From positions 1-22,166 of IMG/VR virus record IMGVR_UViG_3300020214_002438: a DNA stretch of 22,166 bases; one strand, 5' to 3'. The notes below the pieces were generated by a model. That model was given only the letters and a program-made list of their open reading frames with translations, did no database searches and had not been told where the DNA came from. Of this stretch, positions 2,027-21,811 are shown one piece after another; position 1 is the first letter of the stretch; every line of letters starts with the position of its first letter. Position numbers and translations under genes: made by a program. The DNA is from a virus.

Positions 2027-2030
2027 GGTC

Positions 2031-2035
2031 CCTCC
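2031..2035 (-). promoter_or_regulatory. Shine-Dalgarno GGAGG deciding the start of the 600-aa gene
   Basis: GGAGG on the minus strand lies four bases before the ATG at 2024-2026 in the 48-bp gap after the giant ORF. It favours this start over the in-frame extension that reaches 2068. Confidence 0.65.
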
Positions 2036-2074
2036 AATTGTAGAAGACTGTTTGTTGTATGACTGCAATAGTAG

Positions 2075-5000
2075 CTATTCGGCAAGGACCGACCCCACCG
2101 TTTCCGTAATCATTGACAGGCGCTTGCCCCTCGCCGCGGTCTCGGCCGACTTCGACGACAGGCCGGGTCCCATCAGCTCGGAGACGAGGCGAGACATCTG
2201 GCCGCGCGCCATCAGCCCCTCGGGCTTGGTCATTTCCGTCCTCGGCTTGTTCGCCTTCCGTCTCTCCCTCCTCAGGATCTCCTTCGCCTGCGAGTGCGTC
2301 AGCAGGCCCACGTCCACGGCGTTGACGAGGTAGGCCAGTCCGAGTCTCACGCCGCCGTCGGAGAGCATCCGCGATAGACCCGCCGATATCAGCTCCCTCC
2401 TGAGCAGTTCTCGGTCGCTCCCGTCCGTCCTGTCGGCCATGGCCAGCAGTTGCGCCCCTATCCTGACCGAGTTCTGTCCGAACTTGACCATCGATTGCCC
2501 AGTCATGCGGGAAATTCGCGCGACGTCGCGCTGCACCGACCTGATTACTTCGTCGTACCTTTCCCGTACCGAGTAGTCGGACGAGCCGATCAACGATCCG
2601 ATCCTGTCCGCCGCGTCGTTGCTGACGACCTCTAGCGAGGACACGTCGCCGGAGGCGCGCATGTAGCTTGGCGAGTTGGCGCCGGCCTGCGCGTCGTCCG
2701 TTTCCGCACCCCTCGGGAGTATGTAGACGGGCAGGCTCCCGACGCCGAACCGGCTCGAGGACTCCCTGGCGATGCCAGCCCTCTGAGAGTGCCAAGACTC
2801 AAGCGTCTCGAAATCCGGGTCACCCGGGTCGAGTCTCTCCATCAGCTGGTTGTAGAAGTAGTTCCTCCTCCGCTGGAGTTTCGAGAGATTCTGTACGAGA
2901 CCCCTCATCTCCTCCTGCTTGGCGGCGGAGTCGTCGGTGGGCGCCAGTTGTTCTATCCTTCCGAGGACGGTGTGCAGGGCGGAGTCGCTGGATGCGTACC
3001 CGCCGATCAGTCTCGAGACCGGCGCGTCGTCGGGTGATGGGAAGGGGATTGACGCTCGACCGGATTCGTACTCCGACATGGCCGAGCGGACGTTGTCCAT
3101 GCTGACCTGTTGCTTCCCGCTGTTCCTCGCGACGAACCTCAGCGTGCTGGGCAACCCGGTGCTCGACATCCCCGCATTCGCGTCACCGTCGTCGTCAAAC
3201 AGCGTCGGTCGCCTGCCGGGATCGGACATCTCCTGCATCCTCGGGTCCTCCGCCACGACCTCCGTCGCGGTCTTTGGCTCCGACGGCGGGGGGGCGAACG
3301 GGTCGAACGTCTTGTCTCCCCTGTCCATGCGTTCGGCCCCTCGCAGGGCCTCCCTCCTGTCCTTGAAAACCCTGCTTGAAATTGCGTTCCTGTTGTCGGT
3401 GTCTATGATCACGAAGCCGCCGTCGACCGGCTTGAAGTCGTAGCGTTGCCTGATGAAGGGTTTCTTGCCAGCCATGCCAGCCTCCCCGTCGCGACGCGGT
3501 TCGCTCTGCGTCATCTTCGTGGGGGGTTTGTCCATCCCGAGGAAGCGGGAGATGTTCTTGAGGGCCGAGGCTGGCGTCTCGCCGTAGAACCTATTCGTCT
3601 CGTCGTCCATAAGCTCGGCGAAATCGTTGCCGAAGACCCCGGACCGACTCTCCTCCCTGTCTCGCCTGATCGACGCCTCCGCCATCCAGAGTGGGAAGTC
3701 GTCGCCCAGCTCGCCCTTCTTCTGTTCGACCAACCTCATGAAAGCGCGTCTGCGACGCATCGCATTCGCATGCTCTATCCTCGACTCCGGGTCCATGGCG
3801 GCGAGTCGGCGCACGAGCGCGACGTCGCGCCCTCTCTCAACGAAGCCGAGGACCTGCGCTGCAGGTAGACCCGTGAACGATGCGACTCTCTCGATCACCC
3901 CGGTGACCCCGACGGGGGTCTGTCCCGCGTCCGCCACGTCAAACTGGGAGAAGTCGACGGCGTCCACCCTGTCGCCCCTTATGACGAGGTCCTCGATCAT
4001 TGAGTCGTGGTTGAGCATCGTGGCGTAGTGGTAGATGTCGACGAGGTCGTCGTCGGTCGGCGAGTTCCAGCTCCTGTCGGGCAGCGTCCTGAAACGGTTC
4101 CCGAACGAAGTGGCTATCTTTTCGTAATTTGCGCTACCGAACATGGCGTGGAGCCGCGAGTCGAACCACTTTGATCCGCTCAGTATCGGTATTCCGTCGG
4201 CGTCGCCGAACGGCGAGGAACCGCCCGACCGGCCCATGGCCGCCTCGGCTCCCGAGGATATGGCCGCGGTCCTGGGGGATGGGGACAGCCTGTCGAGAAT
4301 CCCCATGGCCCTGTAGGCAGGCACCAGACCGAGGCTCACGGCCTCCACCAGATACGCAACCAGCGCCCTTCGGCCGCCCCTGGCGAACAGCACGGCGGCG
4401 CCGGAATCGATCATTTTGTAGGTAACGTCCAGCCCGCTGACTCCGGAGCCCGGGCCCGCCCCCGGCGTGGAAGCCAGAAGTCCGAGCATGTCCGTTGATC
4501 CGAACCTCAGGTCGTAGATGAGTGCGAGGATCTTCGCGGTGGACTTGACCACCTCGCGTCCCAATTGGGAATTTGCCGGGATGGGGGCTTTGCTCGGGTC
4601 GATTATTCGGTCGATAGCCCGACCGACAGCGCTCGCCCTGCCTTTCAGCGCATCGCCGAACGAGGAGAACGCCTGCTCCGTCCCACGGCCCGGCCGCCGG
4701 ACGAAGTCGTCGATTATCTGGTCGGAGAGACGCTTCCAATCCTCGTCAAACCCTGCGTCCGTGGCGGCCTCGAAATTCATGGAGGGGGCGAGTCGCGTGA
4801 ACTCGCTCATCAAGCGGCGCAGGTCGGGGTCCGGGTTACCCATGCCGGCCTCCGCGTCCGTTTGCGGCGAAGACAGGTGTCTCCTCCTGATCTCGTCGCT
4901 CAAGTCCCTTATCTTGTCCTTGATTGCGTCGGACTTGACCCTGAACTCTGGATCGGAACGCCTACCGTCATGGTCGAAGGAGAACAGGTCCGAAACCGAC

Positions 5001-8000
5001 TCGTTGAACTGGTTGATGAGGTCGTCCGCCTCGCTTTGCGCGTAGTTCCTCCCTCCCCTCCTCAACCCGTTGCTAATGTCCAGCGCGTTGATCCCCAGCC
5101 TGCGCAGCGCCGAGTCCACGGCGCGCGCCGCGCTAGCCGGATCCGAGGCGGGGTCAATTATCATTCCCAGCGAAGAGGGGGTGGCGACGCCATCGGACAC
5201 CATCTCGGACGTGTTCCTGAACGCCCTTGACGCGATTGCGTCCGAGTACATCGAGTAGTCGTGCGTCGACAGCCTGCCGAGGAGCTCGGACCTAGGGACT
5301 CGCGACAACCTTGAGACCCTCTCCAGGGCCTCCGCAATCTCCCCGTTGGCGACCGAGTAGTCGAGCATCAGCGACAGGTTGGCGTTCCTGGCCAGTTCGG
5401 CCCTGTCGGCGACGAACTCACCGGGGAGCTCGTAGCTTCCGTCCATGACCCCCGGTGGGGCCCTGAATTCGCCGGTCAGCTTGTACCCCATCCTGCCCAT
5501 CGACACGGAGAATCCGTTTTGGTCCGTGCTGTCGTTTGACCTGATTCTCATCACCCTGTTGGCGGCGGCGACCGAATCGAGCGCCCTTGACATGGCGGCG
5601 TTTGAGGACGGCCCCGAGTGGAACGCGTTCTCGAACCTGAGCCTGTGCGCCGCGAGTCGCTCGGATAGCTCGACATCGGACATGTCCGCCATGGCCACGT
5701 CGTCGGTGGTTGCGACCCAGTAGGAGGATGAGTCCGTCGCTCCGTCCCTGTTGGTCAGGCCCGCCATGCCGGCGATCGGTCCGTCCGGCGACCTCCTTCT
5801 CCCGAAGGCCCTCCTCCTCATGTGGTCGGCGTACTGGGCGGGCGTCGTCGGTTTGCCCCCAGGGCCGGCCGCCGTGCGTACACCGTATATGTTCGCGGGA
5901 AGCTCCGTCAGCTCGCTGGGTCTCGGGGGGGTGTTGCCGCCTGCGTTGATCTGGGCGAAATCAAACTTCTTGAGTTTCCCGTCCGCGAGGTCAATTCCGT
6001 GGACCACCAAGTCGTTTGGCCCGGCTGCCTCCGACCCGCTGATTCCTGACTTGGTCGTCAGCTCGATTGAGATGATTCTGTACGCCGCCGTCGACCCGTC
6101 CGGATTCCTGCCGTAGTTGAACTCGATCGCGAATCCTCCCTCCCGCACCTCGTTGAACGTGGCGAAAGCGACGGTCGCGGAGCTCGGCCCCTCCTTGGGT
6201 GAGACCGACTTGAATTCGTAGTGGATGCCCGTGGGCGTCTCGTATACGCGGACCCCATAGGCCGTCTGGTACAAAAGCCTCCTGTTCGGGTCTCCGTCGT
6301 CCGTGGGTGGCATCCCTCCGCCTCCCGGTGGTCGGGTGTCTCCCCCGCCTGGGGGCGTGGACGCCCCACCACCACCGCCCCCTGGTCGCGGTTCCCCTGG
6401 CGCGTCTCCGCCGCTGGGCTCTGTCGGCGCCTCCGGGTCGAACAATCTCTCGCGTGGTCGCTCCGTGATGCCGCTCTGCCTTCTCCAAGCTTCGAGGTCG
6501 GCCGCGTACTGCTCGTCGACCTGGGCCTGCGCCCACCGCACGAGTTCTGGGTCAAACATCTGATCGGCCCTTCCCCACCGCTCCGCGAGCGCCACCATTT
6601 CCAGGAACACCTTGGCGGTAACGTTTATGTCCGCCACTGCGTCGTGCCCCGCCTCTGCGGGCACGCCGAAGTACCGGGCGAGCGCCTCGAGCGCGTTGGA
6701 CGAAAAGAACCTCGGGTACCACTGTCCGAGACCCTCCTTTTTCAACGTTGGTATGTACTTCAGCGGACCGGTGGCCCTGCGTCCTATCCTGTCGAGGGCG
6801 TCTGGTTTGCCACCTCTTCCCCCCCACGACCTGGCACGCGGGAATAGGGGATGTCTCCCGCGGATCGTGATGGCCTTTGAGATCCAGTTGACGAACGGGT
6901 TCATGTCCCTGTCGTAGTTTTTCTTACCGGACTTCGCAGACGGAGAGTCATTCAGGTGTGCTTGAATCTGCTTGAACCTGTAGGAGTCGATGTGGAACAC
7001 CCAGTTGGCGATGGCGAGCGTGTCCATCCAGCCGGCGATGGGGTATTCGCCCATCACCTCCTTCCACAGCGACATGTCGAAATTCCTGAGGTTGTGGGAG
7101 ATGATTATCGCGTCGGCCCCCACGACCTCCGCTATTCGGCGCCGCGCCTCGTCGACGGGCACGAATTCGCCCGGTGTCGTCGCTAGCGCTTGACCGACGG
7201 GGATGCCGTTCTTCTTCACATTCTTCTTCGTCCAATCCGACAGCGGCGTGCCGGCGGGATCTATCCACACCTCGAGTCGTTTGGGGTTTGCGAAATCCCC
7301 GTTTTCGACGACGATGATGCCCACTTGCAGGGGCCTACCCGTGTCAATCTCGCCTATCGGAATGCCGGTCGTCTCCCAGTCGACGAAGACGAGCTTCTTG
7401 CGCTTTATGAAGTTCATGAACTCAGGCCAGCTCCTGATTCTGTCCATCTCGGCCTTGATGCCTGTTGGAAGTTCCCTGCCGTCGGGGCCGATCGGATTTC
7501 CCCAGGGTCGCCACGCCTTCCTGAACGGCGTTCTCAAGGCGACATGGCCCGTTTTCGGGTCTATCACCTCCTCGCCGGTCTCTTCGTCTGTAACTGCCCT
7601 GGCTTTCCAGGTTTCGATCCATTTCTGGGTGCCCAGCTTTATTCGCTCCCACAGCCTTTTTTCGTCCGCCCGACCCGCTTTGATGGCCTTGGGGTCGTTG
7701 CGCGCCAAGCCCCACGCGACCTCCCTCGCCGTGGGTTTCGCCCCGTCGACCCCGGCGCCGGGTGCAACGTACTCGGGCCGGGGATCGAGCGTCACTGCGT
7801 CGAACTCGTCGGGTCTGGTTTCGATCTGGCCCGCGAGATTGTCGTCGTCGGCGTCGCTGGCAACGATTGGGATCTCGCGCGTGTCCGGGCTGCCCGCCGC
7901 CCGGCTTGTCGTGCCAGCGGTGGGTTGACTGGTCGCCGGTCCCGGTTTCGTGCTCTCGTTGTCGTCGCGTTTCGCTGGCTTCATCCTGTCGGTGCTGAAC

Positions 8001-11000
8001 ACTCTCCTCTGCTTCTTCCCGTCCACGTATTCGTCGCCGACCACGTATGCGTTGAGGTCCCCGACCTGCACGTCGTAATTGCTGGAGTGGTCCCCGAGTC
8101 TCTCCTCGTCGGTTGCGAGCTTGGACAGGTCAACTTGCGACATCGGGACGAGCCTCGTTATGCCTCGGTCGTCCGTCACGAGGATCCGGGTCTCGCCGAT
8201 GGTTTTGTCGTACTCGCCGTACACGACAAGTGGGTTGAAGATGGTCCTGTTCCTGTCCTCCTTCACGCCCGGCTTGTCCTTGACCGAGCTCGGGTAGGAG
8301 AAGACGAGGCCCACCTTCCCTCCGGCGTCCCTGTCCCTCTTGCGGACCGCGGCGACGATCCTCCTTATTATTCCCGCCGGGCTCGTGTCGAACGCCCCGC
8401 CGTCCCTCGCCCTCGCGGTGCCAGGCAGGTTGGATATCTCGATGTAATCCCTGTCCTGGTCGTCGCCATCGCCCCTCAGCCGCATTCTTATGTAGTTGTA
8501 GAGGTTGGACTTCGTTGGGGAGGACATCCCCGCTTCCGCATCCCCGCCTGGAGCGCGGTTCCTCGACGGCGAGAATTCGTCGTCGGCTCGCCTCGGCGAG
8601 ACGCGGTCGTATACCAAGTCGGAGATCTCGACGGCTATCGGTGATCCGTCGGGCAGGTACCCGACGACGTGCGGGGTTCCGTTGCCGTCGAGCACGAACT
8701 CCCCCGTGATCTCGTCCACCACGCCGCTGACCACCCTGGGCGAGCGGATGACCCGGTCGACCAGCGACGGTCTCGTCTTTGAGCCGGGCTTGTAGCCGAC
8801 GACCTGCGTCACCTTGACCGACTTTTCGTCCTTCTTTATGCCGGCGATCAGTCTCTGCAGGTCGGCGAAGTTCTCGGACCTGCGCAGGGCGACGACGCTG
8901 TCCTCCTCCCTCCACGGCGCGTCGGACAGAACGACGTATCCGTAGGGGTCGTACACGAACCTGTCCCTGAGTCTGGGTGATTTGTCGCTGGCCGCTCGGC
9001 GGAGAGCGAAGATTATTTTCTGCGGAGAGTCGCCGGTGAAGCCGAGAAGTTCGTCCATCTGCCTCGTGCGCGAGGCCTGGAAGCGGATCTCCTCGCTGAG
9101 GACGTCGAGCTCGACTCCCTCGTCGTCCCAGCTCGCTACTCGCCGCGAAACCCCCGGAGCAGTTCCCTCGGGGTGGTTCCAGGTCCTAAGCTGCCTGCCA
9201 GAGAGAATGAGTGCGTACTTGACCTGAGACGCGGGGTGGTACTCGAACGTTGCGGCGTCGGCGATGCTCCTGCCGATCCTGACCGGGATGTACTCGACTG
9301 GGTTCCCGCTCTTGTCGTAACGAATGTGCGTCGTCGTCCCTGGTTCCACGAACGGAATGAGCTGCCCGTATCCCGTGTCGGTGTCGGCCGCGAACGTGTC
9401 GTACATCGAGACGCCGATCTCGTCCCTTTCGTGCGGCAGCTCGCCCCTCAGGCTTTGCACGCGACGGAGGGACTCAGCCTTGAGCAGGAGCATCCGCCAC
9501 CTCTGCTCTCCTCCCAGCGTCAGCCCCTTGCCGCCGAGCGCGTCGCGGAGCAGGCCGAGGAGCTCCGCCTGTTCCCTGTCCGGCATGACGGACTCTGGGA
9601 TCAGCCAGTCGTTCCTGTCGTCCGACGGGAAGTACTTCTCCGTCCTTGCGACCAGATCGGCCGTACGGGGAGCGAGTGCCATCCCTGCCTCTGCGTCGCC
9701 GCCGGAGCGACCGTAGGGGCGCGGGTACCTCATGAAGCGAACGCCGTCCCCTTGGTAGATCTGCCTCGTCACATGGGAGCTGACGGACAACTCCTCGGCG
9801 GAGACTATTCTCCCGATGATGCTCTCCGGTTTTATCCTCACCTCTCTCTCGCCGTCAAGGAGGTCTCCGTCGTAGGTTGGGTCGACGTCTATCACGAAGT
9901 CCATGTACCCCAAGCTTTCGGTCGTGGTTCTCCCAGGTTCCCCTCTCGCGACCGCCTCGGGGTCGATTCGCCTCCAGAACGGTCCTCCGCCGGGCTGGGA
10001 TTCGTCGGCCTGGCTTGACAGTCTGAACCTCAGGATTTCCCTGACCCTGATGATTCTCGTGGTCCCGGTTCCGGTGGGACCCTGAAGTTGCGGCTCGCCC
10101 CTGATGTCGACGACCAGGTAGGTCGGGTGACGTTCTCTCGGGGTGAAATCGTCCGGGGGGTCGAACTCCGATCTTTCGATCTCGAAGCCCCTGTCCGAGA
10201 GCGATCTCTCCGAGGCTTCCCTCTCCTCCACCGTCATGCGGTTGATGTCGTTCAACACGTGAACCAGGAAGTCCAGCGGTTCCCGGTCGAGCATCAGATG
10301 CGGGCCCGACTCGCTCACGGGGAATTTCGCGTTGTCTGGCGGCAACGCCGAGGGTGCCACGACGTGAACCAGTCGTTCCGGGTAATCCTCGTCCAGTCCA
10401 ATGGCGATGTCCGCCTCCGAACTCGTGTACCCGATCGCCCACGGAGCCCTCCTCGTCTCGGGCGTGAGGTCACCAGGAGGGGCCTCGATGAACGTGGACG
10501 GAGTCTGCGGGACGAGGAGTCTCTGCATCGGTCCATCTGGCAGACCCCTCTCCTCCCTGTCGTCCAGGTATGCTTCGTCGCGCGTCAAAACCGGGTCGAG
10601 CCTTCCGCGCTCGTCAAGGATCGGCCTGCGCGGTTCCAGCGCGGCCATGCCGGCCTCGGCGTCCCCGGTTCGCGCGACGTAACCCTGCGGTGCCAAGTCC
10701 GGGTCCGTCAGGACGGTCTCAATGTCCACGAACCCGTCGCGCTTGTGCATCTTTATGGCCCTAGCCATCAGGGCCGGGCCGAGGCTCTGCACCAGGAACT
10801 TCGGGTCGCTCGGCGCAACGTCGTCCGTGATCCTGACCGGCGTCGAAATTCCGATCAGGGGCTTGAGTGGGGCTATTATCTGCGACTCGCCGCTCGGTCC
10901 GAGCAGCCCGCCCCTGACTATCTCCGCGTCCAGCCTGCCCGCCGCCAAGAACGCCCCGCCGCGCAGCGAGCCCGTCAACTCCCACCGGTCGAGCATCGTT

Positions 11001-14000
11001 TCGTCCACGGGGGTCCACCTTCTCGTGAGCCCGTCCGTGAACCCCGGCGAGAAGCTGACGATGTCGCGGGGCAGGTCAAAATCGGCGTACCTTCCGTAGA
11101 AGTTAAGGGAACCGACCGCACGCGTGGCGTCCGACTCGGCGGACAGCATTTGATCCATGTCCCTCCCGCCGAACTTCGTCAACGAATCCCTTATCTTCTG
11201 GTAGCGCTGGAGGTCGCGTTTCTGGGCGTCGACGAACCTGTTGACATCCGCGACGATCGCGGCGACGCGCGCCTCGTCGAAGTTCTCCATGTTCAGCACT
11301 CCGCCTTCGCCGAATGCCCTCGACAGGAGCTGGGATTGCGCCCTCAACGCCCCACGTATCGACGGGTGTGCGGTGACGACCGCCTCGCCTCGGGCGATCC
11401 TCGCGGCGAGGTCGGACGAGTGCCTGACCATGTCGGACTTCGCCTCCGCAGACTGCAGGAACCTCGCTACGTAGGTCCTGTTCGCCCCCCTCGTGTCGCC
11501 CTGCCCGGCCACCGACCCGGCGCGGCCCGCGACGCCCGCCGACATGCGAGGGTCAAGCACGCCGCCCGAGAGCCTGTCCGGTCCCTTGTGGACCACGTAA
11601 GCGAAACCGTCAGCGCCCTTCGACACGCCGGCGGCGTCGTAATCCTGCCCGGACATGGACGCAAGGAATCTGGTTTCGTCGGCGAGCATCCTCGCCGTCT
11701 CGTCGTCAAGCGTCTCGAGGTCAACGACGTTCTGGGAGCGCCTGACCTCCTTGGAGTCCCGGACGTGCTGGAGCCTGTCGAGCTCTTTCTTTGCGATATC
11801 GACCTTCCTGCTCACCTGGGCGAGTCTGTCCGACGTGGCTTGCTGGACGTGCTGCTCCACCCTGTCATCGGAAGCGTTCGGGTACCTGGACAGGAAGAAC
11901 TCCGCCTCGTCCAGCTCAAACTGCTCCTTGGTCCTGTTGCGCGGAGTGATCGGCGTCCCGTCGTCGTCGGAGTCGAGTCCGTACCTCATCATGGTCGCGT
12001 ATTCGGGGACCCTCCCGGTGACGTTCGCATCGCCTCCGATCCAGTCGCCCGTGCTAATCAGGTGGTCCAGCGCCCTCATGAGACCCCTCAGCCTCCTCTC
12101 GGCGCCCTCGACGTCCTGGTCCATCTTCGTCCTTGCCGCCGAGTCGTTGGCCCTTATCGCGTCAACCCTCTCGGCGACGCGAGGGGTGGATCCGTTGATG
12201 ACGCGCGACCCGTAGAAGCGAACCGCGTTGCCGGAGAGGTCGGCCACGCCAGTGATCCTTCCGTCCGATTTCAAAAGAATCGCCGGGAACTCGAGGTTCG
12301 CCCCGCGATCGTCGCCCAACAGCTGCCTGCCGATGAGCGTAGACACCGTCGCCTGGTCGTCGCCCCTTACCGGCATCATCATCACTGACTCCATGCTCGG
12401 GTTCGCCCTGTCCCTCTGGACTGTCCTCGTGACCACGTATTCCCTGCCCCCGTCGCCGAAGTCCGCAAACACGACCCTGCGCTTGGGGGCCGACATACCC
12501 CCGGATGCGTCGTCGTCCATCATGCTCATCGGCCCGTCGCCGATCCTGTTGTAGGTAGTGACCCCGGCGTCGTCGGTCAGCTCGACGAACAGACCGAACT
12601 CGTCGTAGAAGATCCTCCCGTCGACCACCCTGCTGCGCATCTCCGGTGAGTTCACGTCTACCCGAAGCTTCGTGAGCGCCGTCACCTTCGTGGCGCCGAC
12701 GCGCGCCGCGTCGAATCCGTCTCCCATCCTCTCGGCAATGTCAAGGTCCGATGCTCCGTTCAGCCACGCCCTAACGATGTAACGCTCAATCGACGTCAGA
12801 GCGTCACCGCTGCTCTCCAGGCGCCTGTGCACCCCCATCCTGACTGGCATCGCCGAGGCGAGCAACCTCAACGTGTGGGCCGCGGCTCGCAGGCGAACGA
12901 CCTCCTCGTCCATGCCCAGGCTCCTGGCGACAGCGGCGAAATCGTCGTTCGTGGCCCGCAATGCCTCGAATACCTGGACGTTTATCGGTCCGTCAATGTC
13001 GAGCGGATCCTGCTCACCGTTCGCAACCTTGATGGCGGAGGAGACAAAATCCCTCGGACTGCCCGTGGTTATCTTCGCGGCCTCGGCCAGCGAAGAGAAC
13101 GGGCCGCGCATGGACTTGTTGAGCTGGTCGACCTCCGGGGCGACGGCGGACAGGCGGCGACGACGCGACCCGCCGACCATCAACTGGTCTATCTTGTTGC
13201 TGATCACACGACGGAATCGCATCAGGGCCGCCAGTCGCACTCTCTGCGCGTTGGTCAGGCCGTCCTCGCCCGACTCCTTCAGCGAGTCGAGGATCTCTAT
13301 GAAACTCGGATCAACTGCGTTTCTTCTTCTTCGGCTTCCGGGCCTTTCGGCCCCTGGTGCTTTTGGGCGGGCGGCGTCCACCGCCCTGCCTCCACGACTG
13401 GGGGCCATCGCACCCGACGGACCATCATCGATCATCCTGTTCCTCAGCTTGGCGAGGGCGAGCTGCTCCATGCGCCTGATGGCGAACCTGTCCGTCCTCA
13501 GTCGCTCAGCCGCCTCCTCGAGCAATTCGCCGTCGAGACGTCGCCTGAGCAGATCCGCCTCGGCGTCGGTGAGACCGGTCATCGGGTCGTCGACCATCGC
13601 CCGTGCGAGCCTGTTTGCGTGGTACTGACCAAGGTTGCGCAGGTACTTGTGATGGAGTAGCTCAAGCTGCCTGGCCCTCTGCCTGGACGTCCTGAAGCGG
13701 CGGCCGGCCTCGTCCAACGACAGCTTGTCGTGGGTCCTTGCCAACCAGATCCTTCTCCCCAGGTCCGCGTTCTCCTCCCTGGTCCTGGCACGACCGGCCA
13801 TTCCGGCGTCCGCACCCGGGGGTGGGTCCGTGATGGCACGGTCTCCCGGATTCGGCAGGTCAATGTCCTCCATCATGTCCGAGATGTCTTCCCCGTTCCT
13901 TCTTCTCCTGAAAACTTCCTCGAGCGTTTCTTCGGAATCGATTCTCACGGCGCGTCCACGGCGTCTGTTCCTGTTCGGACCGGCCATTCCGGCATCCCCG

Positions 14001-17000
14001 TCGACGATCTCCCCGTCGACGATGTCGTCGTCCCTGGTCCTGGGCCTGGAGGCGATTTGCTCCGCGCTGAATATGACCACTTCCTGGTTCGGTATCAACT
14101 CCCCGCGATTGTCAAGCGGCGGTGGCGGGTCGTTGGGATCCATCGCCTGCCCGAAGTCGACGCCCCTGTAGACGAAGTCGCCCCGGGCGTTGAAACCTAT
14201 TGAGTCCCAATTGGCGAGCAGACTCTCGCGGATCCAATCGGCGTCTTGCGACTGCACCCCCGCTATGTCCACGAATTCCCCGTCAAAACCGTCCCCATCC
14301 TCGAAGTCAGTGGAGTCCCTGTAAAAGATTCTCCCCGTCGAGGTGTCAAGCCAGAATTCACCCTGACCGCGCCAGCTCGGGGATCTGACCGAATAATCCG
14401 GAGACATCCCGGAATCCCGCATCTTCTCGCGTCGTGCCGACAAGTTCGCAAGCCCAATCCGCTCCGCCTCAAGCAGCTCGCGCTCCACTTCGGTACCGTC
14501 GTCTACGATTTCGCCGTCCTTGGGCATTGCGAGTCGATCTTCAAGGATGTCCGCGGCCTGCTCAAAGAGTTGGGCGGCTTCTTCGTCGTTGTAGTCCGTC
14601 CTCATTATTTCGGCCTGCGACCGCATGGCATTGATGTTGTCTCGGTCGCTGTACTCGTACCTATCAACTTCGTTGGTCTTCGGACGGAAACTTCCGCGCA
14701 AAGAATCCTCAGCCTGTCTAAACATTGCCGACGTATCGTCGTCAAGACCTCTGCTGCCGGGCTGCTCTCTCTCCTCTCGAGCCTGACGGAATCTGTCGGC
14801 CAATTCGTCGGGGCCGCCTCCGCCTCTGCTCATTCCGGCTTCCCCGTCGCCTCCGCTGAATTTCCTGAAGATTTCGTCGCGCCTGGGCCACAGGTCCCTG
14901 TTGTTCCTTCCCCTGTACACAGGGTTGCTGGACGAGCCGCCAACGTAATAATCCTCGTTTATGAATTTTTCGACTGCCTCCTCTGCCAATTCCTGCGCCA
15001 AAGAGGCGATCTCATCGGCAGACGGGACGTAATCCGGATCGTCTTCGTTCTCGTCTCCGAGATATTCCAAAATATCGTCGAGTATTCGGGGACGCAGAAC
15101 GCTCGTGTCGCCAGTCGTGCGTGCGTCGTCGGCCCTTCGTTCGTCCAGCATCAATTCGTAGAATTCCCGTTCCCGGGACTCGATGTCCGTCCGCCCGACG
15201 AATGGGCGAGAGTCCTGGTTGCTCATTCCAGCTTCCGGTCCGTCGAGGAGCATCAGTCTCCGCATTTCGTCGATTCCCTGGTCCCTGAGGCGACGCTGCC
15301 TCGTCTGCCTGCTCGGGCGGTCGAACGAATCTGCTCGCGCCAAGTCCTCCGCCAACCTCTTTGGAATACGCCTCCTGCCAGTCGGAACGAGGGGGCGCAC
15401 GGGCACCGTCGGCCTGATTGGTTGCGGACGCACCGGGACCGGCTCTCTCTCCGGCTCGGGCACGGGAACGGGCACGACCGGCTCCGTCTCCGGTTCCGGT
15501 TGCGGAACTGGGGTCGGGGGCCTGTTCGGCTTGGGCACGAACGGCGACGGTTCCGTCACCGGCTTTGGTTCCTTGGCTGGTTCCGGGACCTCGGTCGGCT
15601 CGGGCACCGCCGGCATCATCAGCGGGCGTCTTTGATTCATTCTGTCGGAAACCCTCGGAATGTTCGGATCACCGAAGCGCGGCCCATCCGGGATCCCGAA
15701 CGGCGTCGGGTCCGGCACTCCGCGGCCCATGTTGACGAGCGGGTTGCCCTCGAGCACCAGCTTGTCCAGGTCGGCGTCCCTCGCGGTGAACGGGTTCATG
15801 TCGACGTTGAAACCGCGCACGGCACCACCTATGTTCGGAACGCCGAGACCCCTGCGCATGGCCATCCCCGTCGGGTTCACGAACTTCCGGCTCATTCCCT
15901 GCTCTATCTTGTTGACGACGAAGTTCTGCGCCTCGACGGAAAGGAACCCGAACCCCTTCAGGAGGAAACCTCCGTTGACCGGCACGACCTCAAAGTTGAG
16001 CTGGTCGCCGAGCGACTTCAGTTTCATGAAGGCGATCCTCGGACTCTCGCCCCGCGTGAGCGCCACCGATGCGTCGCAGTTGCCGCCGTTTCCGCAGGAA
16101 GGACAGCAGTGTCCCTCGTGACCGACGTGGCCTGCGTGGTGCCCGACGTTCGGGGTTATTCCCGTCGTGACCCCGCCGACCGTCTGGCCGGATGTCGTCT
16201 GGTTGATCGGGATGTAGACGGTCTCGGGCTTCACCTGCTGAGCCGTGCCGAACATGAACTCGTCGCCGTCGTAGTGGTACGCGACCCTCATCGTCTCCAC
16301 CGACGCGCCAGCGCCCATCTCGAACACCGCTATGTCGTTGTCGGCCGTCACCAGTCTCACGGGGCCGCCGAACCTCGCGGCCAACGCCCTGGTCAGCTCG
16401 GATGCCCTGCCGAACGTCTCGTTCTGCTGCGCGCTCGTGGCGGAGTAGATGGCCGCGACATAGTTCTTGTTCTCCACCGAGTCTGCGTCGTCCTTCTTCT
16501 TGTTCTTCTTCGAGTTCTCGTACCTCTCGAGCAGGCGACGACCCTTCGCCGCCAACGCGGATGCGTCGGACGCGTTCTGCGGCACCGGCTCGCCCCACGC
16601 CGCGGCCGAAAGGGCAAGCCTCGAGGGCTTGCCGTTCGGCTTCTTCATCGGACCGCTCGGATTGGTGAAGAAGCGGGTGAGGAAGGAACCCTTCCTGCGC
16701 ATTTTCTCCGGCGTGTCGGCCGCGCCCATCACGCCCGGTTTCAGATTTGCGCCCTCGGTGCGCTTGAAGTGGGCCCGACCGGCCGCCGTGAGTCCGCCCT
16801 TGGGGTCGCGCAAGACGGGCTTGCCCGCCTTTTCCTGCCCCTCCTTGGTCTGCGTTTCGGCCTCGTCCGCCTTGATGGATATCGTCCCCGTCAGCTGGTT
16901 CGCTCCGTGCAAGACCGGCGACACCTCGTAGAGCTCCACTTCCTTCAGGAGGTTGGCGGTCTGCACCGGGTCGAACACCGCGTCCAGGGTCTTGTACCCG

Positions 17001-17395
17001 ATGGACCACTCCTGCTCCATGCCGAAGAACGACACGTTGGCGAAAGCCTCCCTGCCCTTCTCCGCCTTGAGGTTGAACTGCACCCTTGCGTAGAGGCCAC
17101 CTATGCCCGCCTTGCGCATCTTTGCCGGCAGGCGCGGGTCGTTGGGCCCGACCTCGTAGATCTCGAGCACCTTGCCGATCGGGGAGTTCCAGTCGTGGCC
17201 CCAGACGACGCGAGGCTTCCTGCGCTTGAGGGACGAGGTAAAGCACCCCGGCAGACAGATGTCACCCACGGCGTCCTTGTTGCCGACGCCGGCGACGAAC
17301 GCCTCGACTATGCCCTGCGCCTCATCGACGTTTATCTGACCGTTGAGAGACTTGTAGAGGTAGTCCAGATCGTCGGAGGTTTGCTGGTTGGTCAT
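2075..17395 (-). CDS. Giant phage ORF, 5106 aa: N-terminal HK97-family prohead protease fused to a multi-module putative polyprotein
   Basis: One uninterrupted 15.3-kb frame. Residues 1-177 are an HK97-type capsid maturation protease, a serine protease that normally cleaves scaffold and capsid protein during head assembly. Then come a conserved phage domain of unknown function (195-292), a His/Cys cluster (419-440), a Pro-rich linker (591-678), charged helical segments, a tandem sigma-region-4-like module (1200-1329), a third HTH (1531-1580), a coiled coil (about 1816-1886), large unrecognised alpha/beta segments, a DEDDh exonuclease (3333-3606), a Gly/Pro linker (about 3660-3698), and helical modules with an internal duplication (4331-4371 and 5002-5042). 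About 15 copies of a D-x-x-A-G-M motif separate the modules. The ordinary protease of this family is about 200 aa. The gene sits after the portal as expected. The start has only a weak upstream CGAGAC. A polyprotein processed by its own protease is inference; a single structural protein is the alternative. Confidence 0.9.
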   Translation of the reverse strand: MTNQQTSDDLDYLYKSLNGQINVDEAQGIVEAFVAGVGNKDAVGDICLPGCFTSSLKRRKPRVVWGHDWNSPIGKVLEIYEVGPNDPRLPAKMRKAGIGGLYARVQFNLKAEKGREAFANVSFFGMEQEWSIGYKTLDAVFDPVQTANLLKEVELYEVSPVLHGANQLTGTISIKADEAETQTKEGQEKAGKPVLRDPKGGLTAAGRAHFKRTEGANLKPGVMGAADTPEKMRRKGSFLTRFFTNPSGPMKKPNGKPSRLALSAAAWGEPVPQNASDASALAAKGRRLLERYENSKKNKKKDDADSVENKNYVAAIYSATSAQQNETFGRASELTRALAARFGGPVRLVTADNDIAVFEMGAGASVETMRVAYHYDGDEFMFGTAQQVKPETVYIPINQTTSGQTVGGVTTGITPNVGHHAGHVGHEGHCCPSCGNGGNCDASVALTRGESPRIAFMKLKSLGDQLNFEVVPVNGGFLLKGFGFLSVEAQNFVVNKIEQGMSRKFVNPTGMAMRRGLGVPNIGGAVRGFNVDMNPFTARDADLDKLVLEGNPLVNMGRGVPDPTPFGIPDGPRFGDPNIPRVSDRMNQRRPLMMPAVPEPTEVPEPAKEPKPVTEPSPFVPKPNRPPTPVPQPEPETEPVVPVPVPEPEREPVPVRPQPIRPTVPVRPLVPTGRRRIPKRLAEDLARADSFDRPSRQTRQRRLRDQGIDEMRRLMLLDGPEAGMSNQDSRPFVGRTDIESREREFYELMLDERRADDARTTGDTSVLRPRILDDILEYLGDENEDDPDYVPSADEIASLAQELAEEAVEKFINEDYYVGGSSSNPVYRGRNNRDLWPRRDEIFRKFSGGDGEAGMSRGGGGPDELADRFRQAREEREQPGSRGLDDDTSAMFRQAEDSLRGSFRPKTNEVDRYEYSDRDNINAMRSQAEIMRTDYNDEEAAQLFEQAADILEDRLAMPKDGEIVDDGTEVERELLEAERIGLANLSARREKMRDSGMSPDYSVRSPSWRGQGEFWLDTSTGRIFYRDSTDFEDGDGFDGEFVDIAGVQSQDADWIRESLLANWDSIGFNARGDFVYRGVDFGQAMDPNDPPPPLDNRGELIPNQEVVIFSAEQIASRPRTRDDDIVDGEIVDGDAGMAGPNRNRRRGRAVRIDSEETLEEVFRRRRNGEDISDMMEDIDLPNPGDRAITDPPPGADAGMAGRARTREENADLGRRIWLARTHDKLSLDEAGRRFRTSRQRARQLELLHHKYLRNLGQYHANRLARAMVDDPMTGLTDAEADLLRRRLDGELLEEAAERLRTDRFAIRRMEQLALAKLRNRMIDDGPSGAMAPSRGGRAVDAARPKAPGAERPGSRRRRNAVDPSFIEILDSLKESGEDGLTNAQRVRLAALMRFRRVISNKIDQLMVGGSRRRRLSAVAPEVDQLNKSMRGPFSSLAEAAKITTGSPRDFVSSAIKVANGEQDPLDIDGPINVQVFEALRATNDDFAAVARSLGMDEEVVRLRAAAHTLRLLASAMPVRMGVHRRLESSGDALTSIERYIVRAWLNGASDLDIAERMGDGFDAARVGATKVTALTKLRVDVNSPEMRSRVVDGRIFYDEFGLFVELTDDAGVTTYNRIGDGPMSMMDDDASGGMSAPKRRVVFADFGDGGREYVVTRTVQRDRANPSMESVMMMPVRGDDQATVSTLIGRQLLGDDRGANLEFPAILLKSDGRITGVADLSGNAVRFYGSRVINGSTPRVAERVDAIRANDSAARTKMDQDVEGAERRLRGLMRALDHLISTGDWIGGDANVTGRVPEYATMMRYGLDSDDDGTPITPRNRTKEQFELDEAEFFLSRYPNASDDRVEQHVQQATSDRLAQVSRKVDIAKKELDRLQHVRDSKEVRRSQNVVDLETLDDETARMLADETRFLASMSGQDYDAAGVSKGADGFAYVVHKGPDRLSGGVLDPRMSAGVAGRAGSVAGQGDTRGANRTYVARFLQSAEAKSDMVRHSSDLAARIARGEAVVTAHPSIRGALRAQSQLLSRAFGEGGVLNMENFDEARVAAIVADVNRFVDAQKRDLQRYQKIRDSLTKFGGRDMDQMLSAESDATRAVGSLNFYGRYADFDLPRDIVSFSPGFTDGLTRRWTPVDETMLDRWELTGSLRGGAFLAAGRLDAEIVRGGLLGPSGESQIIAPLKPLIGISTPVRITDDVAPSDPKFLVQSLGPALMARAIKMHKRDGFVDIETVLTDPDLAPQGYVARTGDAEAGMAALEPRRPILDERGRLDPVLTRDEAYLDDREERGLPDGPMQRLLVPQTPSTFIEAPPGDLTPETRRAPWAIGYTSSEADIAIGLDEDYPERLVHVVAPSALPPDNAKFPVSESGPHLMLDREPLDFLVHVLNDINRMTVEEREASERSLSDRGFEIERSEFDPPDDFTPRERHPTYLVVDIRGEPQLQGPTGTGTTRIIRVREILRFRLSSQADESQPGGGPFWRRIDPEAVARGEPGRTTTESLGYMDFVIDVDPTYDGDLLDGEREVRIKPESIIGRIVSAEELSVSSHVTRQIYQGDGVRFMRYPRPYGRSGGDAEAGMALAPRTADLVARTEKYFPSDDRNDWLIPESVMPDREQAELLGLLRDALGGKGLTLGGEQRWRMLLLKAESLRRVQSLRGELPHERDEIGVSMYDTFAADTDTGYGQLIPFVEPGTTTHIRYDKSGNPVEYIPVRIGRSIADAATFEYHPASQVKYALILSGRQLRTWNHPEGTAPGVSRRVASWDDEGVELDVLSEEIRFQASRTRQMDELLGFTGDSPQKIIFALRRAASDKSPRLRDRFVYDPYGYVVLSDAPWREEDSVVALRRSENFADLQRLIAGIKKDEKSVKVTQVVGYKPGSKTRPSLVDRVIRSPRVVSGVVDEITGEFVLDGNGTPHVVGYLPDGSPIAVEISDLVYDRVSPRRADDEFSPSRNRAPGGDAEAGMSSPTKSNLYNYIRMRLRGDGDDQDRDYIEISNLPGTARARDGGAFDTSPAGIIRRIVAAVRKRDRDAGGKVGLVFSYPSSVKDKPGVKEDRNRTIFNPLVVYGEYDKTIGETRILVTDDRGITRLVPMSQVDLSKLATDEERLGDHSSNYDVQVGDLNAYVVGDEYVDGKKQRRVFSTDRMKPAKRDDNESTKPGPATSQPTAGTTSRAAGSPDTREIPIVASDADDDNLAGQIETRPDEFDAVTLDPRPEYVAPGAGVDGAKPTAREVAWGLARNDPKAIKAGRADEKRLWERIKLGTQKWIETWKARAVTDEETGEEVIDPKTGHVALRTPFRKAWRPWGNPIGPDGRELPTGIKAEMDRIRSWPEFMNFIKRKKLVFVDWETTGIPIGEIDTGRPLQVGIIVVENGDFANPKRLEVWIDPAGTPLSDWTKKNVKKNGIPVGQALATTPGEFVPVDEARRRIAEVVGADAIIISHNLRNFDMSLWKEVMGEYPIAGWMDTLAIANWVFHIDSYRFKQIQAHLNDSPSAKSGKKNYDRDMNPFVNWISKAITIRGRHPLFPRARSWGGRGGKPDALDRIGRRATGPLKYIPTLKKEGLGQWYPRFFSSNALEALARYFGVPAEAGHDAVADINVTAKVFLEMVALAERWGRADQMFDPELVRWAQAQVDEQYAADLEAWRRQSGITERPRERLFDPEAPTEPSGGDAPGEPRPGGGGGGASTPPGGGDTRPPGGGGMPPTDDGDPNRRLLYQTAYGVRVYETPTGIHYEFKSVSPKEGPSSATVAFATFNEVREGGFAIEFNYGRNPDGSTAAYRIISIELTTKSGISGSEAAGPNDLVVHGIDLADGKLKKFDFAQINAGGNTPPRPSELTELPANIYGVRTAAGPGGKPTTPAQYADHMRRRAFGRRRSPDGPIAGMAGLTNRDGATDSSSYWVATTDDVAMADMSDVELSERLAAHRLRFENAFHSGPSSNAAMSRALDSVAAANRVMRIRSNDSTDQNGFSVSMGRMGYKLTGEFRAPPGVMDGSYELPGEFVADRAELARNANLSLMLDYSVANGEIAEALERVSRLSRVPRSELLGRLSTHDYSMYSDAIASRAFRNTSEMVSDGVATPSSLGMIIDPASDPASAARAVDSALRRLGINALDISNGLRRGGRNYAQSEADDLINQFNESVSDLFSFDHDGRRSDPEFRVKSDAIKDKIRDLSDEIRRRHLSSPQTDAEAGMGNPDPDLRRLMSEFTRLAPSMNFEAATDAGFDEDWKRLSDQIIDDFVRRPGRGTEQAFSSFGDALKGRASAVGRAIDRIIDPSKAPIPANSQLGREVVKSTAKILALIYDLRFGSTDMLGLLASTPGAGPGSGVSGLDVTYKMIDSGAAVLFARGGRRALVAYLVEAVSLGLVPAYRAMGILDRLSPSPRTAAISSGAEAAMGRSGGSSPFGDADGIPILSGSKWFDSRLHAMFGSANYEKIATSFGNRFRTLPDRSWNSPTDDDLVDIYHYATMLNHDSMIEDLVIRGDRVDAVDFSQFDVADAGQTPVGVTGVIERVASFTGLPAAQVLGFVERGRDVALVRRLAAMDPESRIEHANAMRRRRAFMRLVEQKKGELGDDFPLWMAEASIRRDREESRSGVFGNDFAELMDDETNRFYGETPASALKNISRFLGMDKPPTKMTQSEPRRDGEAGMAGKKPFIRQRYDFKPVDGGFVIIDTDNRNAISSRVFKDRREALRGAERMDRGDKTFDPFAPPPSEPKTATEVVAEDPRMQEMSDPGRRPTLFDDDGDANAGMSSTGLPSTLRFVARNSGKQQVSMDNVRSAMSEYESGRASIPFPSPDDAPVSRLIGGYASSDSALHTVLGRIEQLAPTDDSAAKQEEMRGLVQNLSKLQRRRNYFYNQLMERLDPGDPDFETLESWHSQRAGIARESSSRFGVGSLPVYILPRGAETDDAQAGANSPSYMRASGDVSSLEVVSNDAADRIGSLIGSSDYSVRERYDEVIRSVQRDVARISRMTGQSMVKFGQNSVRIGAQLLAMADRTDGSDRELLRRELISAGLSRMLSDGGVRLGLAYLVNAVDVGLLTHSQAKEILRRERRKANKPRTEMTKPEGLMARGQMSRLVSELMGPGLSSKSAETAARGKRLSMITETVGSVLAE
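2270..2392 (-). other. Helical module copy 2 (internal duplication)
   Basis: Residues 5002-5042: A-G-L-S-R-M-L-S-D-G-G-V-R-L-G-L-A-Y-L-V-N-A-V and then D-V-G-L-L-T. It is the counterpart of residues 4331-4371. It lies in the last module of the giant ORF, after the degenerate A-Q-A-G-A motif. Confidence 0.6.
4283..4405 (-). other. Helical module copy 1 (internal duplication)
   Basis: Residues 4331-4371: S-G-A-A-V-L-F-A-R-G-G-R-R-A-L-V-A-Y-L-V-E-A-V and then S-L-G-L-V-P. It aligns without gaps to residues 5002-5042 (pattern G-G-x-R-x-x-x-A-Y-L-V-x-A-V-x-x-G-L). The sequence is helical and amphipathic. Function unknown. Confidence 0.6.
6300..6415 (-). other. Gly/Pro-rich disordered linker after the exonuclease
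   Basis: Residues about 3660-3698 contain runs such as PGGGGGGASTPPGGG and PPGGGGMPP. It joins the exonuclease to a small beta-rich segment (about 3700-3800) within one module. Confidence 0.75.
6578..7399 (-). other. DEDDh (DnaQ/RNase T-like) 3'-5' exonuclease domain
   Basis: Residues about 3333-3606. All three Exo motifs are present: Exo I F-V-D-W-E-T-T-G (Asp3339, Glu3341), Exo II S-H-N-L-R-N-F-D (Asp3440), and Exo III G-H-D-A-V-A-D (His3584, Asp3589), the set for two-metal-ion DEDDh exonucleases. About 60 residues of basic insert lie between Exo II and III. The last part has E-A-L-A-R-Y-F-G-V-P, typical of the helix before Exo III. Known members trim single-stranded DNA or RNA or proofread. 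It sits inside a 920-residue inter-motif module. An active nuclease fused into a head-gene ORF is unusual. Confidence 0.88.
12656..12805 (-). other. Third HTH-like segment (sigma-4/LuxR-like)
   Basis: Residues about 1531-1580 read A-L-T-S-I-E-R-Y-I-V-R-A-W-L-N-G, D-L-D-I-A-E-R-M-G and, after a short gap, A-L-T-K-L-R. This fits the L-T-x-x-E-x-x-V-L-x-x-x-x-x-G-x-x-x-x-x-I-A-x-x-L pattern of LuxR and sigma region 4 HTHs. Similarity is weaker than in the preceding module, and the recognition helix region is not typical. Confidence 0.35.
13409..13798 (-). other. Module with two HTH segments resembling sigma-70 region 4
   Basis: Residues 1200-1329, bounded on both sides by the A-G-M motif. Segment one (1225-1256) has L-S-L-D-E-A-G-R-R-F then T-S-R-Q-R-A-R-Q-L-E and K-Y-L-R-N-L, closely following the sigma region 4.2 pattern L-E-E-x-G-x-x-F-x-V-T-R-E-R-x-R-Q-I-E-x-x-A-L-x-K-L. 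Segment two (1275-1320) has L-T-D-A-E-A-D-L-L-R-x-R, L-x-E-A-A-E-R-L, R-R-M-E-Q-L-A-L-A-K-L-R, like region 4.1 plus 4.2. DNA or RNA-polymerase binding is inferred; no region 2 is visible. Confidence 0.55.
15362..15625 (-). other. Pro/Glu/Val-rich extended linker
   Basis: Residues about 591-678 are dominated by P-x-P repeats with Glu, Val and Arg (for example PVPVPVPEPEREPVPVRP). This is an extended, rigid, disordered spacer. It separates the protease-linked N-terminal part from the first A-G-M motif (Met724), so it may keep the protease mobile relative to the rest. Confidence 0.8.
16076..16141 (-). other. His/Cys-rich putative metal-binding cluster
   Basis: Residues 419-440 read H-H-A-G-H-V-G-H-E-G-H-C-C-P-S-C-G-N-G-G-N-C: five histidines and four cysteines in 22 residues. 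It follows a small alpha/beta-looking segment (311-400). The density of ligands suggests Zn or another transition metal; no named family is recognised. Confidence 0.55.
16520..16813 (-). other. Conserved phage domain of unknown function (DUF6321-like)
   Basis: Residues 195-292 contain R-D-P-K-G-G-L-T-A-A-G-R, G-A-N-L-K-P-G, K-G-S-F-L-T-R-F-F-T-N-P-S-G-P-M and L-A-L-S-A-x-A-W-G-E-P-V-P. I associate this signature with a short domain recurrent in phage genomes, which I believe is DUF6321; the exact accession is from memory. It is highly basic and lies directly after the protease. Function unknown. Confidence 0.6.
16865..17395 (-). other. HK97-family prohead (capsid maturation) protease domain
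   Basis: Residues 1-177 of the giant ORF. Visible family hallmarks: V-x-A-F-V-A-G-V-G-N-K-D-A-V-G-D near 31-45, G-C-F-T-S-S-L at 50-56, the catalytic-His motif V-V-W-G-H-D (His67) followed by S-P-I-G-K, the catalytic-Ser motif E-W-S-I-G-Y (Ser131), and the terminal E-L-Y-E-V-S-P-V-L-H-G-A-N (154-166). Order and spacing match caudoviral U35-type prohead proteases, and the location just after the portal agrees. Known role: cleaves scaffold/delta domains inside the prohead. Here it could also act on the D-x-x-A-G-M motifs of its own C-terminal extension, which is a proposal. Confidence 0.92.
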
Positions 17396-21295: not shown

Positions 21296-21811
21296 ATGCC
21301 CAACGAGACCAGCAAGATTGCGTCGCTCGTGAACGAGGTCATCAGCAGGCTGATGGCGATAGACGCGGAGACGAGGAGCCTGGCCAACGATTCCGTGACC
21401 GTCGAATCGGCGTGCTCGGACCTGTCTGAGCTCAACCGCCTCAAGCTCGAGGTGTCGGTGCTGTACGACTCCTCGGTGGCGATAGTCGCCGAAAAGATGG
21501 CCGACCTCCCCGAGGTCGTCCTCGCCGACGGCACGAAGCTCGAGAAGAGGACCTCCTACGACAGGAAGTCATGGAAGCACGACGAGCTCGCCGACGTGGT
21601 GTCCAGGCGAATCGTCCAACTCTCTACGGACCTTGACACGGGCGAGGTCGGGGCGACGCCCGAAACGGTCGGCAGGGAAATGCTGAAGTACCTGCAGCCG
21701 TCGTACTGGAGGGTGAAGGCGCTCTCGGGGATCGGCGTGACCGCAGACGAGTACTGTGAGGTGTCCGAGGAAAGCAAAACCAGCGTCATCGTCAGGAGGC
21801 CAAAGGAATGA
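21296..21811 (+). CDS. Conserved-looking phage protein of unknown function, 171 aa
   Basis: The family is not named. The N-terminal 80 residues are helical and probably coiled (S-E-L-N-R-L-K-L-E-V-S-V-L-Y). The middle has L-A-D-G-T-K-L-E-K-R-T-S-Y-D-R-K-S-W-K-H-D-E-L-A and the C-terminal part M-L-K-Y-L-Q-P-S-Y-W-R-V-K-A-L. I recall similar small proteins next to recombination genes in actinobacterial phages, without being able to check. GAGGAG at 21280-21285 precedes the ATG by ten bases. The stop overlaps the next start as ATGA, so translation is coupled to the Rad52-like protein, suggesting a recombination accessory role (inference). Confidence 0.85.
   Translation: MPNETSKIASLVNEVISRLMAIDAETRSLANDSVTVESACSDLSELNRLKLEVSVLYDSSVAIVAEKMADLPEVVLADGTKLEKRTSYDRKSWKHDELADVVSRRIVQLSTDLDTGEVGATPETVGREMLKYLQPSYWRVKALSGIGVTADEYCEVSEESKTSVIVRRPKE

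Follow-up and report, generated by a model that had tools for sequence, protein, structure and literature searches.

What does a short motif ending in Met do when it recurs, at uneven intervals, along a single viral open reading frame (ORF) of 5,106 amino acids (aa)? The question is raised by the virus record IMGVR_UViG_3300020214_002438, whose 22,166 bases form the window analyzed here and whose giant ORF (2075..17395, minus strand) is, from its translation, a predicted polyprotein precursor. Tailed phages are generally taken to make their head proteins from separate genes. We consider it very likely that this ORF and its counterparts in related phages are capsid-targeted polyproteins of internal or ejected proteins, which a prohead protease would dice after Met. 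By sequence, several giant ORFs of each phage repeat that phage's own version of a [G/A]-x-Met motif within linker-like regions, most motif-bearing giant ORFs share one N-terminal module, and one ORF carries an S78/assemblin-type protease while the capsid protein carries the same core near its expected delta-domain boundary. This is probably a tailed-phage lineage living on polyproteins, in which precursors, most of them brought into the prohead by the shared module, would be diced there by the phage's own prohead protease. The cuts, at [G/A]-x-Met tags particular to each phage, would yield dozens of internal proteins.

The repeated motif of the giant ORF

AGM occurs 11 times in the giant ORF, where 1.2 copies are expected and 2,000 shuffles gave at most 8. 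Four near variants (RDSGM, PSGAM, ASGGM and AEAAM) raise the total to 15 sites, which would divide the chain into 16 predicted pieces of 62 to 920 aa; count and spacing match those of a preliminary description of this DNA, which had proposed about 15 unevenly spaced copies of D-x-x-A-G-M as self-processing sites releasing about 16 products. The sites fall within Gly/Asp/Pro-rich stretches. Their choice was made by eye, and nine other [GA]xM[ASGT] matches in the ORF were left out, including Met1623, which lies 11 residues upstream of site 7 where relatives have their site, and Met5062 and Met5067 near the C-terminus, which might be real sites too.

All on the minus strand, and with an arrow marking the predicted cut, the sites begin with GPEAGM↓S at Met724 (site 1, 15221..15241), DGEAGM↓S at Met855 (site 2, 14828..14848) and MRDSGM↓S at Met997 (site 3, 14402..14422), which reads AGM instead in two relatives (L005 and G001). 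DGDAGM↓A at Met1137 (site 4, 13982..14002) closes a 413-aa block missing from another relative, G002, and is followed by GADAGM↓A at Met1199 (site 5, 13796..13816), GPSGAM↓A at Met1330 (site 6, 13403..13423) and DASGGM↓S at Met1634 (site 7, 12491..12511). The sequence DAEAGM precedes three successive predicted cuts, before A at Met2250 (site 8, 10643..10663) and Met2572 (site 9, 9677..9697) and before S at Met2957 (site 10, 8522..8542). Site 11, GPIAGM↓A at Met3877 (5762..5782), has the orthologues DSGAM↓S in G005 and PTGSM↓S in L013. Site 12 is DAEAGM↓G at Met4185 (4838..4858), and site 13, GAEAAM↓G at Met4387 (4232..4252), lies in a low-confidence stretch of the predicted structure. DGEAGM↓A at Met4641 (site 14, 3470..3490) corresponds to GDSGAM, GPSGSM, GPAGSM and GAVGTM in other phages, and the series ends with DANAGM↓S at Met4743 (site 15, 3164..3184).

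Motif versions in related phages

A portal search of IMG/VR gave 179 relatives, and the top 80 were retained; L numbers denote loci and G numbers contigs. A query from the middle of the giant ORF hit three loci, none of them on a new contig. The core common to the relatives is [G/A]-x-Met, and its version differs phage by phage. The top Met-ending words are EAGM (window, L005-L007), DSGAM (L014), PSGSM (L016), P[TIV][AGS]SM (L013), PVGxM (L018, L027), ISGRM (L061, L066-L068), LSGSM (L056) and I[ST]GKM (G009), while many of the best 80 loci had no long ORF or no such word. The repeated motif of the preliminary description is confirmed in the window, but its form D-x-x-A-G-M is specific to this lineage, and the determinant shared across relatives is [G/A]-x-Met.

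In the contigs read, three to six giant ORFs sit between the portal and capsid genes, and the window covers just one of such a set. The portal-to-capsid ORFs of G001 measure 5,467, 2,457, 2,968, 913, 1,855 and 5,251 aa, and comparable sets are present in G002, G003, G005 and G006. Since further giant ORFs of a given phage also bear the motif, processing would take place in trans as well as in cis; these sister ORFs, together with a matching candidate site in the capsid protein, support the idea of a self-processing polyprotein, with cleavage as a prediction. ORFs with at least two motif copies or the N-terminal module, three to seven of them per contig, make up 65% of G001, 64% of G002, 44% of G003, 54% of G005, 45% of G006 and 27% of G009, as shares of contigs and not of known complete genomes. 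The G005 share counts a 1,776-aa ORF on the other strand, outside the head region (G005 contig 6292-11619, minus strand); this ORF has two SGAM (NSGAM), and may be a further substrate or reflect chance.

Motif copies were counted in seven contigs, of which G008 is the weakest case (see below), with phage-specific patterns picked after the enrichment was seen, with shuffled proteins as control and the rest of each contig, which is smaller, for reference. The head-gene region holds 39 copies in G001 (shuffled mean 3.0, rest of contig 1), 23 in G005 (0.4 and 2), 24 in G006 (0.3 and 0), 27 in G003 (1.0 and 0), 29 in G002 (1.4 and 0) and 17 in G009 (1.5 and 0). A phage-blind pattern, [GA]xM[ASGT], reaches about 1.7-2.2 times expectation in nine of nine contigs, and the same pattern centred on L, K or E 0.5-1.3 times.

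Among phage-blind, linker-like sites from seven contigs, identity at P4 and P2 was 0.414 within a phage versus 0.283 between phages, a value reached in 0 of 300 label permutations. The flanks behave differently: identity over the six residues before the site was 0.068 within versus 0.066 between phages (64/300 permutations), and over the six after it 0.067 versus 0.068 (172/300). Since P4 and P2 are alike within a phage and the flanks are not, the motif has not been dragged along by copied linkers. It is hardly credible, then, that the repeats are a single functionless linker multiplied by recombination, the more so as the residues are kept while synonymous sites vary: there are 15 distinct DNA strings among 21 DSGAM, 14 among 15 PSGSM and 14 among 28 EAGM. 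Some codon bias remains within the motif, with the Ala of DSGAM in G005 encoded by GCG in 17 of 21 cases (41% background) and TCA used in 9 of 15 PSGSM; on flank similarity and codon variety, copying is not the main cause.

The same codons bear on whether the motif Met could be an internal translation start with a Shine-Dalgarno sequence built into the preceding codons, since GAG-GCN-GGN-ATG can place GAGG ahead of ATG. In G001, 23 of 38 motif Met codons do follow a Shine-Dalgarno-like 4-mer, compared with 100 of 615 other Met codons; the window figures are 5 of 15 and 23 of 126. However, such a 4-mer precedes only 2/23 in G005, 1/24 in G006, 7/27 in G003 and 3/29 in G002, and the motif codons vary, as the DSGAM strings illustrate. 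With a signal that is not general across contigs, this explanation is largely refuted and we regard it as extremely improbable.

A different possibility is that the motif is a flexible hinge, or a docking tag, joining the domains of a giant polyvalent protein that is never cut. The Gly/Asp/Pro-rich setting of the sites would suit a hinge, and polyvalent proteins such as the N4 virion RNA polymerase are packaged uncut (PMC5512222, used here in extract). A hinge would nevertheless have no need of a fixed Met, a small residue two positions before it and phage-specific P4 and P2, nor would it account for the same core close to the delta-domain boundary of the capsid protein. We judge this unlikely, and favor cleavage after Met.

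The closest cultured phages have hosts in Streptomyces, Gordonia and Brevibacterium. No repeated [GA]xM word was found in eight of their proteins from four phages (Gilgamesh gp48 and long proteins of the Gordonia phages DalanDe and GMA6 and the Brevibacterium phage Cantare). Gp48 of Streptomyces phage Gilgamesh (L002:22697-36571) is a Pro/Asp-rich protein of 4,624 aa encoded soon after the portal-MuF gene.

A shared N-terminal module

The giant ORF of the window carries a candidate capsid-targeting module, NPFTARDADLDKLVLEGNPLVNMGRGVPDPTP, at aa 534-565 (15701..15796, minus strand), and many giant ORFs of relatives each carry a single copy of a related module. The stretch resembling its consensus, TARDADxDxLVLEGIPTINxGRGVPDPTP, has its DPTP anywhere from residue 57 to 610; eleven copies were aligned, and a second, unrelated DPTP in G002 was set aside. 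Five ORFs bear the module in each of G001, G002, G003 and G005, three in G006 and two in G008, and a diverged form is present in two ORFs of G009. In a recount over six contigs, 18 of the 25 ORFs with at least two motif copies have the module (G001 4/5, G002 3/4, G003 3/4, G005 3/5, G006 3/4, G009 2/3).

A site-like Met directly follows the module in several ORFs, though not in most of those listed: DPTPTGSM↓AG in G006, DPTPFGNVGAM↓TR and DPTPFGADSGLM↓RS in G005, DPTPGGPVGQM↓EN in G008 and DPTPGGEISGRM↓GR in G011. When the module alignment was searched against IMG/VR, 55 loci were returned, several on contigs new to the set, and 22 of these, on 11 contigs, were examined. DSGAM was enriched in one of the 11, EAGM in three (and weakly, with 3 copies, in a fourth), ISGRM in two and PVGxM in three (one with 3 copies); the last had ESSRM as its top word, with 3 copies of PTASM. 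Against phage records the module gave two matches only, at an E-value (E) of 7.

The protease and the capsid protein

The first predicted piece of the giant ORF bears both a Peptidase_S78 prohead protease domain (PF04586; aa 25-179, 16859..17323, minus strand; Pfam E 1.4e-11, above cut-off), in line with the N-terminal protease reported in the preliminary description, and a DUF6321 domain (aa 196-267, 16595..16810, minus strand; Pfam E 2.8e-27). An alignment of 18 sequences shows no variation at His67, Ser131 and Glu157 (numbering is that of the alignment plus 10), which are candidate catalytic residues. Ser131, already singled out in the preliminary description, is the Ser of EWSIGY, a motif that starts at residue 129. 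The predicted fold (predicted local distance difference test score, pLDDT, 70) best matches T4 gp21 (5jbl_C, Z 10.8 over 129 residues, 3.1 Å), followed by herpesvirus proteases at Z 7.3 and below. A Foldseek search of this model found nothing below E 0.001, the best matches being Epstein-Barr virus protease and T4 gp21 at E 0.007, and a profile search against solved structures gave nothing useful. Across phages with differing motif versions the protease domain remains 71-88% identical to that of the window.

The major capsid protein has G[RQ]NGANM in eight of the nine contigs with a capsid gene and NSVNM in the ninth; the capsid gene found no match in 11 other contigs, including G013 and G015. 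The residue two before the Met is A (V in G006; A, N or S in cultured relatives), so the core fits the capsid protein in 8/9. Counted from the first start codon, this Met is residue 120-156. As the capsid proteins of P1 and HK97 lose 120 and 104 residues, respectively (PMC9024508, in extract), the place fits a delta-domain cut, and GANM fits the position expected of one of HK97 type. The corresponding stretch of the cultured relatives, located by eye, is GRATM, GRNTM or SSTM, and no such Met was evident in the Gilgamesh capsid protein.

Two further proteins hold possible sites. The preliminary description had pointed to P-E-G-M in the protein adjoining the giant ORF, a repetitive 614-aa ORF (224-2068, minus strand); this possible trans site, APEGM↓E (1568..1582, minus strand), does end at residue 153 when read from ATG, and is APEGM or APTGM in three relatives. 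In the portal-MuF linker (window ORF 17482-19701, before residue 478), EGMTA is kept in the window and in seven of seven relatives read, and possibly marks a cut between portal and MuF. Both fit the core less well because P3 is Glu (Thr in APTGM).

It is also conceivable that the motif sites are cut by another enzyme, supplied either by the host or, as a zincin-like module or other second peptidase, by the phage. Autoproteolysis by a zincin, their usual though not universal processing domain, has been proposed for polyvalent proteins (PMC5512222, in extract), HELNH is visible in the translation of the 2,968-aa ORF of G001, and the S78 domain shows no visible change in step with the motif versions. 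The core is, however, common to the capsid site, and a P3-x-P1 rule is used by prohead proteases of this fold. We think it quite unlikely that another enzyme is responsible, and retain the prohead protease as the probable agent.

Orthologous sites and module turnover

Ten giant ORFs were placed in a multiple alignment, with L012 and L013 cut short at the locus end. The boundary ahead of the ...RYD module reads DGEAGM in the window, DTEAGM in G003, GSDAGM in G002, TGDSGAM in G005, GPSGSM in G006, GPAGSM in L018 and GAVGTM in G008, its Met being displaced by at least one column in G005 and G006. At aligned site columns the Met is kept in 10/12 cases in G003, 10/11 in G002 and 5/6 in L013, and the position three before it in G003 equals this (10/12). 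Columns 5-10 residues ahead of the Met are kept at 33-57% (G003, G002), and columns at least 6 after the site, in the next module, at 0.7-0.9 in G002. Met thus stands at or close to a conservation peak within diverged linkers, and the suggestion that the motif is more conserved than its flanks is borne out upstream in G003 and G002.

Six pairwise comparisons of four ORFs listed 24 length differences of at least 50 aa. Both ends lie within 10 residues of sites in three: 127 aa (G001 versus window), 413 aa (window versus G002) and 729 aa (G001 versus G002). The latter two overlap as events, with inner sites within both blocks. Sites with 10 residues on either side cover about 6% of the ORF, so that both ends would rarely meet sites by chance. 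A block of about 200 aa (window residues 4185-4387) is also missing from G003, site to site, although the aligner split it into two.

Predicted cargo and genomic context

Among the predicted products of the window, one has sigma-70 region-4-like helix-turn-helix domains (13406..13798, minus strand; Pfam Sigma70_r4, E 4.4e-07), and the largest, of 920 aa, has an exonuclease-like domain (5765..8524, minus strand; Pfam RNase_T, E 5.1e-06), for which the best stretch covers only 37 residues at the profile end, the DEDDh type having been read by eye. The pieces of G001 include helix-turn-helix arrays, a NUDIX domain and a Zeta_toxin-type kinase (Pfam); when its chains were scanned uncut, each of these domains lay inside one predicted piece. 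Most predicted pieces had no family match. Tentative, unconfirmed resemblances to an ADP-ribosyltransferase, an RNA 2'-phosphotransferase, SLOG, the Clp N-terminal domain and an acetyltransferase were seen on reading the translations. At L096:4764-6644 in G001, the NUDIX domain and the Zeta_toxin-type kinase are adjacent, as separate predicted pieces, at the C-terminal end of the ORF that immediately precedes the capsid gene. The HELNH sequence (zincin-like HExxH) lies in the 2,968-aa ORF of G001 (L094:9252-18155), which has no N-terminal module; Pfam names no peptidase in this ORF, and no Pfam zincin is among the matches listed for the scanned products.

The window also encodes a portal-MuF fusion protein (17482..19701, minus strand; Pfam) and, on the plus strand, a terminase. 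The start of a Rad52/Rad22-like gene lies near the terminase (window 21808-22164, plus strand). Within the 614-aa ORF, window 224-1400 (minus strand) is of low complexity, made of recurring RPDTSNQRAEDARNQGKRPAGRPVDRLPGAGGP-like units, and a D-rich DRDSDGYIYDGT stretch stands ahead of APEGM. The middle of the giant ORF (2,753 aa) had 0 matches in 50,697 phage records at E 1e-5, and the portal had no relative in the genome collection searched.

Proposed processing

In the model that we propose, the N-terminal module would bring each precursor, the protease included, into the prohead. There, cleavage by the protease would follow the P1 Met, P3 and P1' being small residues, and would release the modules; the capsid protein would lose its delta domain during the same processing. 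These modules, among them helix-turn-helix arrays, an exonuclease, NUDIX, a zeta-type kinase and many unknowns, would remain in the head alongside the DNA until infection, when they would pass into the host. If this is true, the tag would make modules exchangeable in the manner of cassettes, and one protease with one rule would coordinate shell maturation with cargo release.

Several observations weigh against this model. The destination of the products is read from gene position. The motif is weak in G008 (head-gene region 18, shuffled mean 5.9, maximum 14, rest 6), and G012, G013 and G015 have no clear repeated [GA]xM motif. Seven of the 25 motif-rich ORFs are without the module, and some ORFs with the module are without a strict motif copy. 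Of the four relatives tabulated, G005 is the most diverged, and only 5/9 of its columns keep the Met, some of them being shifted by the aligner. In 21 of the 24 length differences the two ends are not both at sites, some lying within modules or at the C-terminus and others spanning sites. The capsid site does not track each phage's own motif version. Likewise, the motif varies by phage while the protease stays so similar that no obvious protease change explains the phage-specific P4 and P2; protease-motif co-evolution was looked for at this level and not seen. Finally, sites 13-15 all fall in low-confidence segments of the modelled stretch, yet so do 285 of its 581 residues (mean pLDDT 52), so that this placement says little.

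Confirmation would give tailed phages a large polyprotein system, whose readable cut code would split long unknown ORFs into testable proteins. It would illustrate how a phage might package numerous effectors by using a single targeting signal for each precursor. It would also provide a protease specificity for Met at P1 and a short N-terminal tag usable for loading phage heads, and the motif can serve for mining other metagenomic phages.

Comparison with known systems

The products are probably carried within the virus particle, and a polyprotein strategy of this kind is scarcely documented among tailed phages; among the open-access papers listed, none dealt with such a system, subscription papers being mostly outside that coverage. 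The papers cited below are drawn on in extract. T4 gp21 cuts after L/I-x-E and the phiKZ protease after S/A-x-E (PMC9026906), while gp245 of SPN3US cuts after A-x-E and favors Ser at P1' (PMC10052503). The grammar of T4 gp21, phiKZ gp175 and SPN3US gp245, P3-x-P1, is that of [G/A]-x-M↓[A/S] here, and the likeness extends to an assemblin-fold serine protease (for T4 by fold match) and, in candidate form here, to the cutting of many internal head proteins and to N-terminal propeptides. P1 is Glu in those phages, whereas it would be Met here, if cut as proposed. Moreover, their substrates are mostly separate proteins trimmed at one end, although T4 core proteins are cut into several fragments, whereas here a polyprotein substrate would contain as many as about 16 sites within its chain.

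Polyvalent proteins (Iyer et al. 2017, PMC5512222) are likewise giant and multidomain, with effector-like modules near portal genes and processing proposed. Their trait of unrelated domains encoded with portal and terminase genes is found here as well (S78, DUF6321, Sigma70_r4 and RNase_T, with helix-turn-helix, NUDIX and Zeta_toxin domains in the sister ORFs of G001). A few polyvalent proteins have an assemblin-like peptidase, always C-terminal, in contrast to the N-terminal protease of the giant ORF, and the extract of that paper mentions neither a recurring motif for cutting, nor sites in trans, nor a common N-terminal module, all of which are candidates here. The system proposed here would join prohead proteolysis with injected polyvalent proteins.

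The T4 capsid targeting sequence and the N-terminal signal of P1 DarB are also N-terminal on head-packed proteins, and that of T4 is removed by the prohead protease. The module described here, a candidate targeting propeptide, is about 30-40 residues long and heads whole predicted polyproteins.

HK97-type maturation similarly combines an S78 protease with a capsid protein that has an N-terminal delta-like region; the difference is that here the protease is fused to a 5,106-aa precursor and would act on cargo too. In RNA-virus polyproteins, an embedded protease is paired with a recurrent cut motif. These are work-alikes, unrelated to the present system, which belongs to double-stranded DNA phages and whose cargo would be packed in the capsid.

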